From contig JAIDFQ010000041.1 of NCBI GenBank assembly GCA_029054245.1, positions 1 to 64,000 on the forward strand: DNA of 64,000 nucleotides, given 5' to 3'. Each line of letters begins with the position of its first letter. Positions within the stretch are counted from its first letter, which is position 1. Shown piece by piece: positions 39,843-57,918 of the stretch. The notes under the pieces are model-generated. The model ran no database searches and was not told where the DNA came from. It saw only the letters and a program-made list of their open reading frames with translations. This DNA is from Lachnospiraceae bacterium (GTDB taxonomy: Bacteria > Bacillota > Clostridia > Lachnospirales > Lachnospiraceae). A program made the translations under genes and the position numbers.

Positions 39843-39898
39843 ACAATCTTTCGCATTTTGCAAATGACCATTTCAGCTGTCAGCTAAAACAGTCTATT

Positions 39899-40040
39899 TC
39901 TTCTTTCATCCAGACTTTACTGTTGGTTTTGGACTTGCACCAAATCAGCCATTCGTTTCTGCCGCCTGCAGTACGGCTAAAACTCATGGGTCGCGGACTA
40001 TACCGCCAGTAGGGAATTTCACCCTGCCCCGAAGAACTTT
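39899..40040 (-). ncRNA. FMN riboswitch (RFN element)
   Basis: The conserved parts are all present on the minus strand: TTCTTCGGGGCAGGGTG at the 5' end, AATTCCCTACTGGCGGT, AGTCCGCGACCC, GATTTGGTGCAAGTCC and AACAGTAAAGTCTGGATG at the 3' end. A terminator hairpin and ribU follow. It senses FMN and turns ribU off. Confidence 0.97.
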
Positions 40041-40107: not shown

Positions 40108-40486
40108 ATCTTTGGAGTAACAGTTCAGCCCACAGAGGCGGTGCAGCAGGGGCGACATGACACCTACAGAAAAGAATCGCTGCCGCTGACGTCGCGCCCT
40201 ATCGTTTCAAAGCTCGTCTACAAATCGGATTTCACTAACAGAATTGGATATAGATGATTCCATACGGACGGGGACAGAGCCCGGCGGCATCCGTGCCGCA
40301 TGGCTCTTAATCCGGCATCCATGCCGGATTCCCCTGATATTCACCAATTCTGTAAGTAAAATTGCCGATTTTTCGCCAGAGCCTTGAAACGATAGGGCGC
40401 GACGTCAGCGGCAGCGATTCTTTTCTGTAGGTGTCATGTCGCCCCTGCTGCACCGCCTCTGTGGGCTGAACTGTTACTCTAAAGAT
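40108..40486. repeat. long inverted-repeat element 1 with branched centre (E1)
   Basis: Arms 40108-40215 and 40379-40486 are inverted copies of each other, 108 bases with only two differences. The 163-base centre holds an inner stem (AAATCGG with CCGATTT, ACAGAATTGG with CCAATTCTGT), then GGGGA/TCCCC (40270-40274, 40330-40334) closing a three-way junction with two hairpins: GAGCC...GGCTC at 40277-40306 and AATCCGGCAT/ATGCCGGATT at 40309-40330. The centre is shared with element 2 at 55793-56141, the arms are not. The right arm includes the stop codon of the permease gene ending at 40479. It may be a large structured RNA, a terminator or a mobile element; I do not recognise a family. The strand is undecided. 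Confidence 0.9.
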
Positions 40487-42367: not shown

Positions 42368-43266
42368 CTCTCCTTCCTCCTTCCTAATACAAAATGCCCG
42401 GGCGCTGTCTGCATAAGTTCTCCGCCGCATAAAAGATCTTCCTCACGGAATGCCGCCATTGTTCTTGCCCTCTCTTTTTTCGGATCCGGGATGGGGATGG
42501 CTGATAAAAGCGCTTTGGTATAAGGATGCTGGGGATTTGCAAACAATTCTTCCGTCGGGGCGATTTCTACCAGCTTTCCCTGATACATCACACCCACGCG
42601 GTCACATAAAAATTCCACCATGGCAAGGTCATGGGCAATAAAAAGAAAGGAGAACCCATGCTCCTTCTGGAGATGCTTAAACAGATTCACAATCTGTGCC
42701 TGAATAGACACATCCAATGATGCAATCGGTTCATCTGCCACAAGCAGCTCCGGTTCCATCGCCAGCGCTCTTGCAATCTCCACTCGCTGCCTCTGACCGC
42801 CGGACAATTCGCTGGGATATTTATCCAGATATTCTGCATCCATTCCAACATAGTACATTTGAAATTCTGCTTCCGCCCTAAAAGAGCCTCTCTTAGGCGT
42901 CATATGCTGTATTTTCATCGGTTCTGCAATAATATCACAAACCTTCATACGTTGGTTCAGGCTCGAATCAGAATCCTGAAAAATCATCTGCCGGGTCGTA
43001 TGAAGCATTTTCTTATTCCTGCGAAATGTTTTTGCATCGCATACGTCAATTCCTTTGTAAAAAATTCTGCCCTCCTGCGTCTTATATACATTCATAATAC
43101 AGCGCGCAATCGTAGATTTTCCACAGCCAGATTCGCCTACCAGCCCAAAAATCTCTCCTTTATGTATGGTAAAGGAGACATCATCCACAGCCTTAATTGC
43201 AGTCCTCTTTGTAACCGGAAAGCTATGAGAAAGATGCTGTACACTTAATAAGATTTCATCGCTCAT
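42364..43266 (-). CDS. oligopeptide ABC transporter ATPase (DppF/OppF type)
   Basis: 300 residues from the ATG at 43266 (MSDEILLSVQHLSHSF), with GGAGAA upstream and an 11-base overlap with the previous gene. The open frame continues to 43596, but that part is antisense-like filler overlapping oppD. Walker A GESGCGKST, Q-loop IFQDSDSSLNQRM, signature LSGGQRQRVEIARAL, Walker B LLVADEPIASLD, and the C-terminal HPYTKALLSAIP of the Opp family are all present. Confidence 0.94.
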   Translation of the reverse strand: MSDEILLSVQHLSHSFPVTKRTAIKAVDDVSFTIHKGEIFGLVGESGCGKSTIARCIMNVYKTQEGRIFYKGIDVCDAKTFRRNKKMLHTTRQMIFQDSDSSLNQRMKVCDIIAEPMKIQHMTPKRGSFRAEAEFQMYYVGMDAEYLDKYPSELSGGQRQRVEIARALAMEPELLVADEPIASLDVSIQAQIVNLFKHLQKEHGFSFLFIAHDLAMVEFLCDRVGVMYQGKLVEIAPTEELFANPQHPYTKALLSAIPIPDPKKERARTMAAFREEDLLCGGELMQTAPGHFVLGRRKES

Positions 43267-44284
43267 TTTTTTCTCCATTCCAAAGCGTCTTATGCTGTGT
43301 CTGCAGCCCTTTGGCGCGCTGATCAAGAAGCCAGGTGGCAGCATAATGTGTGTCTGTGATACGGAACATGGGTGGTTCCTCCTCATAATCAATTGCCAGT
43401 GCATATTCATTGCGGCAGGCAAAAGCATCTCCTTTTGGCGGATGCAGCAGCGTAGGCGGCATCCCCGGTATGGTGTACAGAGTATCCCGGTCCTTAGAGA
43501 ATGCCGGGAGAGAACGCATGAGCCCCCATGTATAAGGATGCCTTGGATCATAAAAAATTTCTTCCGCCGTACCGATCTCCACAATTTTTCCCGCATACAT
43601 CACCGCAACGCGATCTGCCACCCTTGCCACCACCCCCAGATCATGGGTCACAAAAATTGTGGCAGTACCCAGCTTCTCCTGAATTTCCCGAAGCAGATCC
43701 AAAATCTGTGCCTGAATCGTCACATCCAATGCCGTTGTAGGCTCATCCGCAAACAAAATAGCTGGATTTCCAGCAAGCGCCATAGCCATGACGCTGCGCT
43801 GCCGCATGCCGCCGGAAAAGTGATGGGGATACAACTTCATGCGTTCTTTGGGTCTGTCTATTCCCACCAGATGCATCAATTCTATGGTTCTGTCATGCAC
43901 CGCCTTTTTTGAAATACCGGGCTGGCTCTGCTTCACTGCCTCCGCTATCTGCATTCCTATGGACATGGTGGGATTTAAAGCCGTCATGGGATTTTGAAAA
44001 ATCATGGAAAAAAGCTTTCCGCGTATCCTGCACATATCTCTTTCCCGGTATGCGATGATATCCGTTCCATTTACCAGAATCTCTCCTGATTTTATTTTGG
44101 CACAGGCGGGAAGCAGTTTCATGATTCCTTTGCACATCACACTTTTTCCGCATCCCGACTCACCTACAACGGCAAGCACTTCTCCTGCATCCAGAAAAAA
44201 GCTGACATCTCTTACAGCTTCCACTTCCCCCTGGGTTGTATAAAAACTAATTGAAAGATTCTTCACTTCTAGCAACTTTGACAT
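43256..44284 (-). CDS. oligopeptide ABC transporter ATPase (DppD/OppD type)
   Basis: 342 residues. Walker A GESGCGKSV (about 40-48), Q-loop IFQNPMTALNPTM, signature FSGGMRQRSVMAMAL, Walker B ILFADEPTTALD, switch His in FVTHD and a C-terminal oligo_HPY extension (HPYTWGLMRSLP, and CRNEYALAI close to the expected cysteine cluster). It pairs with OppF as a heterodimeric importer motor. Confidence 0.94.
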   Translation of the reverse strand: MSKLLEVKNLSISFYTTQGEVEAVRDVSFFLDAGEVLAVVGESGCGKSVMCKGIMKLLPACAKIKSGEILVNGTDIIAYRERDMCRIRGKLFSMIFQNPMTALNPTMSIGMQIAEAVKQSQPGISKKAVHDRTIELMHLVGIDRPKERMKLYPHHFSGGMRQRSVMAMALAGNPAILFADEPTTALDVTIQAQILDLLREIQEKLGTATIFVTHDLGVVARVADRVAVMYAGKIVEIGTAEEIFYDPRHPYTWGLMRSLPAFSKDRDTLYTIPGMPPTLLHPPKGDAFACRNEYALAIDYEEEPPMFRITDTHYAATWLLDQRAKGLQTQHKTLWNGEKNER

Positions 44285-55755: not shown

Positions 55756-55792
55756 CTATACAAATATTATCATTTTGTAAACAATTGGGGGA

Positions 55793-56141
55793 GTTACCGT
55801 TCAGACCGCAAGGGGAGCAGGATGGATAAGGGGCGGGAAAGGCAATGGCATCTGTGGGCGGCACCTATTTCATCTTTGCAAGTCTCGTCTTCAAATCGGA
55901 TTTCACTAACCGAATGGATATAGATATTTCAAACCGAACGGGGACAGAGCCCAGCGGCATCCATGCCGCAGGGCTCTTAATCCGGCATCCATGCCGGATT
56001 CCCCTGATACCTCACCATTCTGTAAGTGAAATTGCCGATTTTTCGCCAGAGCCTTGCAAAGATGAAATAGGTGCCGCCCGCAGATGCCATTGCCTTCCCG
56101 CCCCTTATCCATCCTGCTCCCCTTGCAGTCTAAACGGTAAC
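55793..56141. repeat. long inverted-repeat element 2 with branched centre (E2)
   Basis: Arms 55793-55886 and 56049-56141 are inverted copies of 93-94 bases with about five differences, mostly G-T type changes, and a one-base gap. The centre (162 bases) is nearly the same as in element 1: AAATCGG/CCGATTT stem, GGGGA/TCCCC, and the hairpins GAGCCC...GGGCTC and AATCCGGCAT/ATGCCGGATT. The arms have no similarity to those of element 1. The inner stem GAATGG/CCATTC is one base pair shorter than GAATTGG/CCAATTC in element 1. It lies between trpB (with element 3) and secA. Confidence 0.9.
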
Positions 56142-56155
56142 GATGACAGGGAAGA

Positions 56156-56499
56156 CCCCGCGCAGGGCATCGGATACAGCAGCAGGTGGTATTGGCAGGG
56201 CAGTTCCCCTGCATTCGGTCGGTCAAAAATTTATAGCGGAGCCTTATGGGAAGCAATTAGAAGGACTTAGCTGCTCTCTCAATACCCTGCAATCGGCGGA
56301 CAGGACGTCCGCCGAAGGCGTGATTTGACCCATGGATGGGTCAATACGCCGGTTGCGTCCGGCGCTAATCCCTAAACAAGAGCTGCTTAGTCCTTCTTAT
56401 CGCTGTACATAGGTCCGCTATAAACTTTTGACCCGACCGAATGCAGGGGAACTGCCCTGCCAATACCACCTGCTGCTGTATCCGATGCTCTGCGCGGGG
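56156..56499. repeat. long inverted-repeat element 3 (E3), different centre
   Basis: Arms 56156-56240 and 56414-56499 (85-86 bases) are inverted copies with two substitutions and a one-base gap. The centre (173 bases) differs from elements 1 and 2 in sequence but has the same plan: an inner stem (AGAAGGACT with AGTCCTTCT), a GGCG/CGCC pair and two tight hairpins, GGCGGAC/GTCCGCC (56295-56313) and TTGACCCAT/ATGGGTCAA (56325-56344). It begins 14 bases after element 2 and ends 30 bases after trpB stops on the minus strand. Function unknown. Confidence 0.88.
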
Positions 56500-56529
56500 G
56501 CTTAATTGTATTTAAAACAAATATCCCCT

Positions 56530-57918
56530 TTAAATCTCATTCCCCGGAAACTTAGGAATTCCTGCCAGTCCTTTGGCAAGGTCTTCGTCGGTGGGGATGT
56601 AGTCGGTCATTTCACCGTTGTTGTAGCGTTCGTATGCTATCATGTCGAAATAGCCGGTTCCTGTAAGTCCGAAAAGGATCGTTTTTTCTTCGCCTGTTTC
56701 CTTGCATTTAAGGGCTTCATCGATAGCAACCTTGATTGCATGAGAGCTTTCAGGTGCGGGCAGGATGCCTTCCACTCTTGCAAACTCTTCTGCTGCCTTA
56801 AATACGGAGGTCTGTTCTACGCTGACAGCTTCCATGTATCCGTCAGCATATAGCTGTGACAGCACAGAGCTCATGCCGTGGTAACGCAGTCCTCCTGCAT
56901 GGTTCGGCGCAGGCATGAATCCGCTGCCTAAGGTGTACATCTTTGCAAGCGGGCATACTTTACCAGTATCGCAAAAATCATATACATATTTTCCTCTGGT
57001 GAGACTGGGACAGGAGGCAGGCTCAACAGCAATAAATCGATAATCCGCTTCGCCTCTCAGCTTTTCGCCCATAAACGGAGAAATCAGACCGCCTAAGTTA
57101 GAACCGCCGCCTGCACATCCAATAATCATGTCAGGTTTAATTCCGTACTTGTCCATGGCTGCCTTAGCTTCAAGTCCGATTACTGACTGGTGAAGCAGAA
57201 CCTGTGTCAACACAGATCCCAATACATAACGGTATCCTTCCCGCGCTGTAGCTGCTTCCACTGCCTCGGAAATCGCACAGCCAAGGCTTCCTGTGGTTCC
57301 AGGAAACTCCTCTAAGATTCTGCGTCCCACTTCTGTTGTGTCAGAGGGGGAAGGGGTAACATTTGCACCATAGGTACGCATTACTTCGCGTCGGAATGGC
57401 TTCTGCTCATAAGAGCATTTTACCATATATACTTGACAGTCCAGTCCGAGATAAGCACACGCCATGGAAAGTGCCGTACCCCACTGACCTGCACCGGTTT
57501 CCGTTGTCACACCTTTAAGTCCCTGTTGCTTGGCATAGTATGCCTGGGCTATGGCAGAGTTCAGCTTGTGGCTGCCACTGGTGTTATTTCCTTCAAATTT
57601 ATAGTAAATCTTTGCAGGCGTCTGCAGCTTTTCCTCAAGACAGTAAGCGCGGACGAGGGGGGACGGACGGTACATCTTGTAAAATTTCCTGATTTCCTCC
57701 GGGATTTCAAAATAAGCCGTTGTATCATCCAGTTCTTGTCTGCAAAGCTCATCGCAGAAAATACCGCGCATTTCCTCGAAGGTTAGCGGCTTAAGAGTTC
57801 CCGGGTTTAAAAGGGGCGCCGGTTTATTTTTCATGTCTGCGCGGACATTATACCAACTGACTGGCATCTCATTTTCTTCAAGATAAATTTTGTAAGGAAT
57901 CTTCTTTTCTTCACTCAT
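56530..57918 (-). CDS. trpB: TrpB2-type tryptophan synthase beta chain (PLP enzyme)
   Basis: 462 residues, longer than TrpB1 (about 400), with the N-terminal extension of the TrpB2 branch. The PLP lysine is in SGSHKLNSA (about residue 118), the phosphate loop is CAGGGSNLGG (about 236-245) and the ending is APESSHAIKVAID. It converts indole plus serine to tryptophan and is usually free of TrpA; no trpA or other trp gene is beside it. Element 3 starts right after it. Confidence 0.93.
   Translation of the reverse strand: MSEEKKIPYKIYLEENEMPVSWYNVRADMKNKPAPLLNPGTLKPLTFEEMRGIFCDELCRQELDDTTAYFEIPEEIRKFYKMYRPSPLVRAYCLEEKLQTPAKIYYKFEGNNTSGSHKLNSAIAQAYYAKQQGLKGVTTETGAGQWGTALSMACAYLGLDCQVYMVKCSYEQKPFRREVMRTYGANVTPSPSDTTEVGRRILEEFPGTTGSLGCAISEAVEAATAREGYRYVLGSVLTQVLLHQSVIGLEAKAAMDKYGIKPDMIIGCAGGGSNLGGLISPFMGEKLRGEADYRFIAVEPASCPSLTRGKYVYDFCDTGKVCPLAKMYTLGSGFMPAPNHAGGLRYHGMSSVLSQLYADGYMEAVSVEQTSVFKAAEEFARVEGILPAPESSHAIKVAIDEALKCKETGEEKTILFGLTGTGYFDMIAYERYNNGEMTDYIPTDEDLAKGLAGIPKFPGNEI

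Follow-up and report, generated by a model that had tools for sequence, protein, structure and literature searches.

The closest described relative of the repeat reported here is the TwoAYGGAY motif (Rfam RF01731), which is tabulated as probably RNA and not cis-regulatory in the part of Weinberg et al. 2010 (PMC2864571) on which we draw. All three cores found in our window, by which we mean the whole 64,000-nucleotide stretch of DNA that was analysed, match RF01731 over the full model (positions 1-168) and above its gathering cut-off of 43 bits. Rfam models these 168 positions only, however, and the long arms, the insertion into sites that are empty in relatives, the homogenisation of the arms and the inversion of the core all fall outside the model. 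With respect to the arms, the nearest parallel is quasipalindrome correction or template switching, which, according to the excerpts used of PMC8794818 and PMC8604942, gives arm homogenisation as well as spacer inversion. Both outcomes are seen here, but in a dispersed bacterial family with a conserved spacer of ~165 nt and arms of up to 170 bp in three genomes, where they recur and occur in place.

Two further kinds of repeat resemble the family in part. MITEs moved by IS66 elements are likewise gene-less and repeated, and a subset of our copies carries the end sequence GTWACNGTTCAG, some copies are flanked by 8-bp duplications, and an IS66-type element with near-identical ends is present in the genus; IS66 elements themselves end in GTAA and generate an 8-bp duplication. 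The difference is that the end motif is recognised in just 17 of the 127 copies, that the arms are unlike between copies, and that a conserved structured core lies inside. REPIN/BIME doublets are palindromic and intergenic as well, and their units recur side by side in inverted orientation, but REP units are much shorter and are tied to a Y1 transposase, whose domain (PF01797) is absent from the genome of the window. Among the papers listed by searches of freely accessible main texts on TwoAYGGAY, palindrome correction, IS66 MITEs, single-stranded DNA motifs and Lachnospiraceae repeats, none describes the arms, mobility or homogenisation of RF01731. What we report is a known Rfam core within a new kind of context, that of mobile palindromes in which DNA copying most likely keeps the arms complementary.

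The feature under study, element 2, lies on the minus strand. Its outer arm (55793-55885, the 3' arm in Rfam orientation) starts with the end motif GTTACCGTTCAG at 55793-55804, its core (55886-56048) is an RF01731 match of 88 bits and belongs to type A, and its inner arm (56049-56141, the 5' arm) closes with the inverted end motif, which reads GTTACCGTTTAG on the minus strand. The original prediction, which gave these limits and proposed self-complementary arms of about 94 bases, was borne out on these two points, as inverted-repeat pairs were detected and the arms of 94 and 93 nt (55793-55886 and 56049-56141) align with 89 pairing positions, four mismatches and a single gap of 1 base. When folded, the strand is far more stable than shuffled sequences (z -21.4, with 0 of 100 shuffles as good).

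A third element, overlooked at first, directly adjoins element 2. On the plus strand, and thus divergent to element 2, element 3 consists of a 5' arm with the junction to the core (56152-56244), a type B core (56245-56411, 114.7 bits) and a 3' arm (56412-56503); the ungapped repeats within the two arms (56152-56232 and 56423-56503) are 93% complementary. Element 1 lies some distance away on the minus strand, with an outer arm at 40108-40214, a type A core at 40215-40378 (89.3 bits) and an inner arm at 40379-40486. Its end motif is found as GTAACAGTTCAG at 40117-40128 and on the minus strand at 40466-40477, and pairing passes this motif by 9 bases (40108-40116, ATCTTTGGA, against 40478-40486, TCTAAAGAT), as if arm copying had reached into flanking DNA. 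The other two elements of the window, like element 2, also fold far beyond their shuffles (z -26.2 and -34.1, 0 of 100 each). Elsewhere in the window, an FMN riboswitch (39894-40040, minus strand, 113 bits) is located ~70 bases past position 40108, where the arm of element 1 ends, and two tandem gene segments (42518-42738 and 43530-43750, spacing 1,012 bases) are 72-73% alike.

Comparison of elements 1 and 2 confirms that they have a common centre, with 88% identity over 149 nt (partner 40245-40393), and the balanced insertion or deletion in the inner stem, GAATTGG/CCAATTC against GAATGG/CCATTC, is present in the sequence. Two other statements about this pair need correction. The stem GAGCCC/GGGCTC had been taken as balanced by change on both sides, but on the plus strand the sequence of element 1 is GAGCCC/TGGCTC, so that the change is one-sided. 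The arms had been described as having no sequence in common; in fact the outer ends of both elements carry GTWACNGTTCAG, and the 5' arms align over their outer 35 nt with a score of 15, which was reached by 1 of 300 shuffles.

The locus between secA and a trpB-like gene shows that the elements have the distribution of insertions. A query spanning this junction runs in G009, G010 and G042 from window position 55786 to ~56523-56530 with 0 or ~10 bases between, so the stretch absent from these relatives is 55787-56522, its right boundary being approximate; there AACAATT abuts, or lies no more than ~10 bases from, the sequence that precedes the downstream stop codon. The pair formed by element 2 and element 3 (56152-56503) is absent from all eight relatives examined at this junction. 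Three of them, G004, G019 and G044, have unrelated sequence there, and in G044, where this sequence was read in part, it includes none of the RF01731 matches listed. Seven other insertions of G044 were checked in G019, and we found four empty sites, one inverted copy and two sites with one flank matched. Members of the family are thus missing at sites that are occupied in relatives.

Target duplications accompany some of these insertions. The empty site corresponding to the G044 copy at C35:18150 reveals an 8-bp duplication (AATGAGTG/AATGAGCG), and another, ATAAGGAT, flanks the copy at C37:654 in the genome of the window; around element 2 itself no such duplication can be recognised. When duplications of 8 bp were searched for generally, there was a modest excess, partly due to palindromic artefacts, with 25 cases identical in seven of eight positions against 12.3 expected and two identical in all eight against 1.2 expected. 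Direct duplications measured from the arm ends showed no clear excess, and the orientation of copies relative to genes, as called by a crude ORF caller, showed no clear bias.

The general architecture of the family is a conserved core of ~165 nt between two arms of ~30-170 bp, without genes. The family is dispersed, with up to ~50 copies per genome, and its copy number differs between species of the genus. There are three RF01731 matches in the window and 45 in its genome (G000), 44 of them above the cut-off and 43 of the 45 with arms. Twelve of 40 relatives have matches above the cut-off, with from at least 1 to at least 50 listed per genome (no more than 52 candidates were scored in each), including 39 in G019, 49 in G044 and at least 34 in G010. 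Long complementary arms (>20 bp) flank 127 of 131 copies from G000, G019 and G044, a set that uses 47 of the 49 G044 matches and leaves out the partial ones at C35:18769 and C11:1. Beyond the genus, 34 of 392 sampled genomes of the order have a match, 32 of them above the cut-off, in 20 of 174 genera, and 30 of the 34 are Lachnospiraceae; the named records with a close core variant are Lachnospiraceae as well (a MAG, Agathobacter ruminis and a Pseudobutyrivibrio). Pairing adjoins the core in 44 of the 46 copies that were studied outside the genus, by an arm threshold that is uncalibrated and looser than that for the three genomes, which makes the shortest arms the least certain. Database searches with elements 2 and 3 against phages and with the core against plasmids returned no match, and one 30-base arm pattern had 0 matches in viral contigs, so that the idea that the arms are captured phage or plasmid sequence, in the manner of a memory, was rejected for what was searched.

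We consider it likely that the family is a gene-less, repeated, insertion-borne palindrome, that DNA copying preserves the complementarity of its arms and that its core is separately selected; some copies may depend on an IS66-type mover. Template switching by the polymerase, or gene conversion from one arm to the other, would maintain complementarity in the DNA itself, at times when the palindrome is folded or sister arms undergo recombination. The arm sequence would then be nearly free to drift, since complementarity would be restored at no cost. As a weaker part of this proposal, at least the copies with GTWACNGTTCAG ends, element 2 included, may have been moved in trans by an IS66-family transposase.

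The close pairing of elements 2 and 3 is not an isolated case. Neighbouring copies in G000, G019 and G044 are divergent in 15 of 16 cases within 700 bp, and within 3 kb there are 19 divergent, 3 same-direction and 0 convergent neighbours; in other genera, all eight neighbours within 3 kb among the matches listed are divergent. Three larger gaps between divergent pairs (G044 C9, C19 and C23) were considered as possible cargo and rejected, as judged by eye from their ORFs they hold ordinary-looking host-type genes. Three single copies in G019 (C41:31560, C51:8432 and C20:71683) are hybrids that combine both partners of a divergent pair in G044, which looks like the collapse of such a pair. One of these hybrids, C41:31560, has no pairing arms at all, which indicates that pairing is not strictly needed for persistence.

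The core is the least divergent part of the element (5.1% between G044 and G019) and is recognisable across 20 genera. A T-T mismatch in its stem, CTTA opposite TTAG, is retained in all 57 type A copies, 73 of 74 type B copies and 40 of 44 other copies (170 of 175 in total); type B cores also contain many G-A and A-G mismatches. Judging from its conserved loops and this mismatch, the core seems to be under selection of its own, and since the T-T mismatch is kept although mismatches elsewhere are corrected, a folded single-stranded form appears to be the functional one. The core thus probably has a function, as a folded single strand. Mismatches in the core stems gave no G-U signature: a first count of G-U against A-C found 5 versus 9 in type A and 29 versus 37 in type B, and a second found 3 versus 7 in type A, 52 versus 41 in type B and 13 versus 11 in other genera (the core counts draw on 49 of 57 type A and 64 of 74 type B sequences, after a length and N filter).

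These observations allow an alternative in which the folded core is a site in single-stranded DNA and not an RNA, which a predicted recombinase or transposase would read and which would travel as a divergent doublet, a logic comparable to that of integron attC sites and REPINs. The missing G-U signature, the conserved T-T mismatch, the strong bias towards divergent neighbours and the insertion behaviour would all agree with such a site. No protein is tied to the copies, however, and the Y1 transposase domain PF01797 has 0 matches in G000 and G415 and one or two in several other genomes both with and without many copies, which gives no link. In addition, arm copying would also erase G-U pairs in an RNA gene, so that the missing signature does not exclude an RNA core, and core-less palindromes, described below, move without it. 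We regard this alternative as possible but doubtful. The same tentative standing applies to its extension to the whole family, according to which RF01731 would be a DNA element, a self-copied palindrome with a folded single-stranded site that is moved as divergent doublets by a predicted recombinase, and the covariation by which it was called an RNA would be a product of DNA copying.

Arms at shared insertion sites change in concert. We compared 16 orthologous copies of G044 and G019, assembled from 17 hand-picked pairs (out of 22 two-sided and further one-sided flank matches) from which three hybrids were dropped and to which two inverted pairs were added. Over 1,101 arm columns, a count that omits the innermost seven, there were 90 concerted changes, 51 one-sided changes, 8 shared mismatches and 5 others, while independent change in the two arms would be expected to give at most ~6 concerted changes. 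The arms have a concerted divergence of 8.2%, about the same as the divergence of the flanks (8.0%). Selection acting through double mutations would slow the arms below the flanks, and this similarity therefore argues against selected pairing. Transversions account for 43 of the 90 concerted changes, against 114 of the 376 one-sided mismatches left over in the arms of 127 copies (p 0.003), and as a transversion cannot pass through a G-U pair, these changes had no G-U route. At two shared sites, moreover, the core is inverted between the same arms (G044 C17:28491 / G019 C26:348173 and G044 C25:62220 / G019 C28:185886; a rearranged third candidate, G044 C5:51714, was not used). Such inversion of the spacer is predicted for template switching or recombination between inverted repeats, and template switching in bacteria favoured transversions, in the excerpt of PMC8604942 used here.

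The leftover mismatches within arms give the same picture. Among 10,463 pairs in 127 copies there are 121 G-U, 141 A-C and 114 other mismatches, counts that are not independent because G019 and G044 have copies in common. The same kind of count in an FMN riboswitch control from the same genus (30 of 51 listed matches) gave 45 G-U against 4 A-C. In other genera the arms have 110 G-U and 87 A-C mismatches overall, and those shorter than 120 nt show a weak G-U excess (60 versus 36, p 0.018).

It is improbable, in light of these data, that all 350 nt of the unit form a long structured RNA in which arm pairing itself is selected, for example as a long double-stranded RNA. Such an RNA would be in keeping with a core that belongs to an Rfam family with covariation and has conserved loops and non-canonical pairs, and with the weak G-U excess in the shorter arms of other genera. 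Against it stand the lack of a G-U excess both in the arms of the 127 copies and in the first count of the cores, the divergence of the arms at flank speed, the large share of transversions among the double changes and the G019 hybrid without pairing arms, and for the arms we reject it. Paired change at the flank rate, no G-U excess and inversion of the core together mean that covariation here is not by itself evidence of selected RNA pairing, and the arm data most likely reflect DNA-level copying between the arms. The original prediction had offered two readings of the covariation, namely selected pairing, or arms of which one strand had been copied from the other; the data favour copying for the arms, while selection seems to act on the centre with its kept T-T mismatch.

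Transversions are commoner among the concerted changes than among the leftover mismatches, which suggests that the correcting process may itself introduce changes. Copying of ordinary point mutations alone would not yield this excess, which counts against simple copying. Another source of concerted change would be ectopic conversion, in which other family members overwrite whole elements or long arm tracts. The dense clustering of concerted changes in some copies (17 of 55 counted columns at G044 C39:76131) and an ortholog pair whose cores differ by 23% (C9:40883) point in that direction, but most concerted changes are scattered single positions within otherwise identical arms, and we find it unlikely that ectopic conversion accounts for them, although it may have acted in the copies with clustered changes. 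Arms made complementary only once, by hairpin-primed or snap-back copying at the birth of the insertion, and merely decaying afterwards, would explain why arms are near-perfect within a copy and strongly different between copies, but this is very improbable and is contradicted, for the copies compared, by the 90 concerted changes that arose at shared G044 and G019 sites after the two lineages split.

Returning to the reading that we prefer, a palindrome kept complementary by copying, the ends of some copies provide information on how it may move. The end motif GTWACNGTTYAG, with at most one mismatch and at one or both ends, is found in 17 of 127 copies, element 2 included, and in 0 control stretches; the other 110 copies are without it. 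An intact IS66-type element in G018 encodes a transposase of 478 aa (PF03050, E 1.7e-38) and ends in GTAACTATTCAGCACC and GTAACTATTCAGAACC; the end motif shares 11 of its 12 positions with both of these ends, and the intact element has no clean 8-bp duplication. In G044, contig C49 (1-2200) carries an IS66 transposase fragment whose frame ends at 1554; the fragment is followed by GTAACTGTTCAGAACC, and GTAACTGTTCAG lies on the minus strand at 1561-1572, 6 bases past the stop codon. A similar terminal-inverted-repeat-like site in an IS66 fragment of G009 was dropped, as it sits inside the reading frame. Palindromes that lack the core and have the end motif on both sides are flanked by exact 8-bp duplications in three of four cases, and they are apparently deletion products or sister families. 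Those with exact duplications measure 54-136 bp (G000 C69:73491-73626, G000 C38:109577-109630 and G019 C45:62615-62747).

Taken together, the end motif in a subset of copies, the 8-bp duplications and the IS66 elements with like ends suggest that part of the family is moved by an IS66-type element. No IS66 was found in G019, with its 39 copies, or in G010, and its role as sole mover is therefore unsupported. The genome of the window has five IS66 matches, none of them with a matching outward end.

For RF01731, the results give a first setting, that of mobile palindromes in gut-type bacteria, and they point to the core with its T-T mismatch as the selected part and to the arms as the unselected part. 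Each genome offers dozens of palindromes that are independent of one another and in which the correction of arms and the inversion of the spacer become measurable in place. Covariation is widely taken as strong evidence of a selected RNA structure, and the arms around the RF01731 core would present a natural case of covariation produced by DNA copying without selection on pairing, with change at the flank rate, about half of it transversions, and no G-U route. Should the covariation of RF01731 as a whole likewise stem from DNA copying, a check of G-U against A-C mismatches may be needed for some other families that were recognised by covariation alone.
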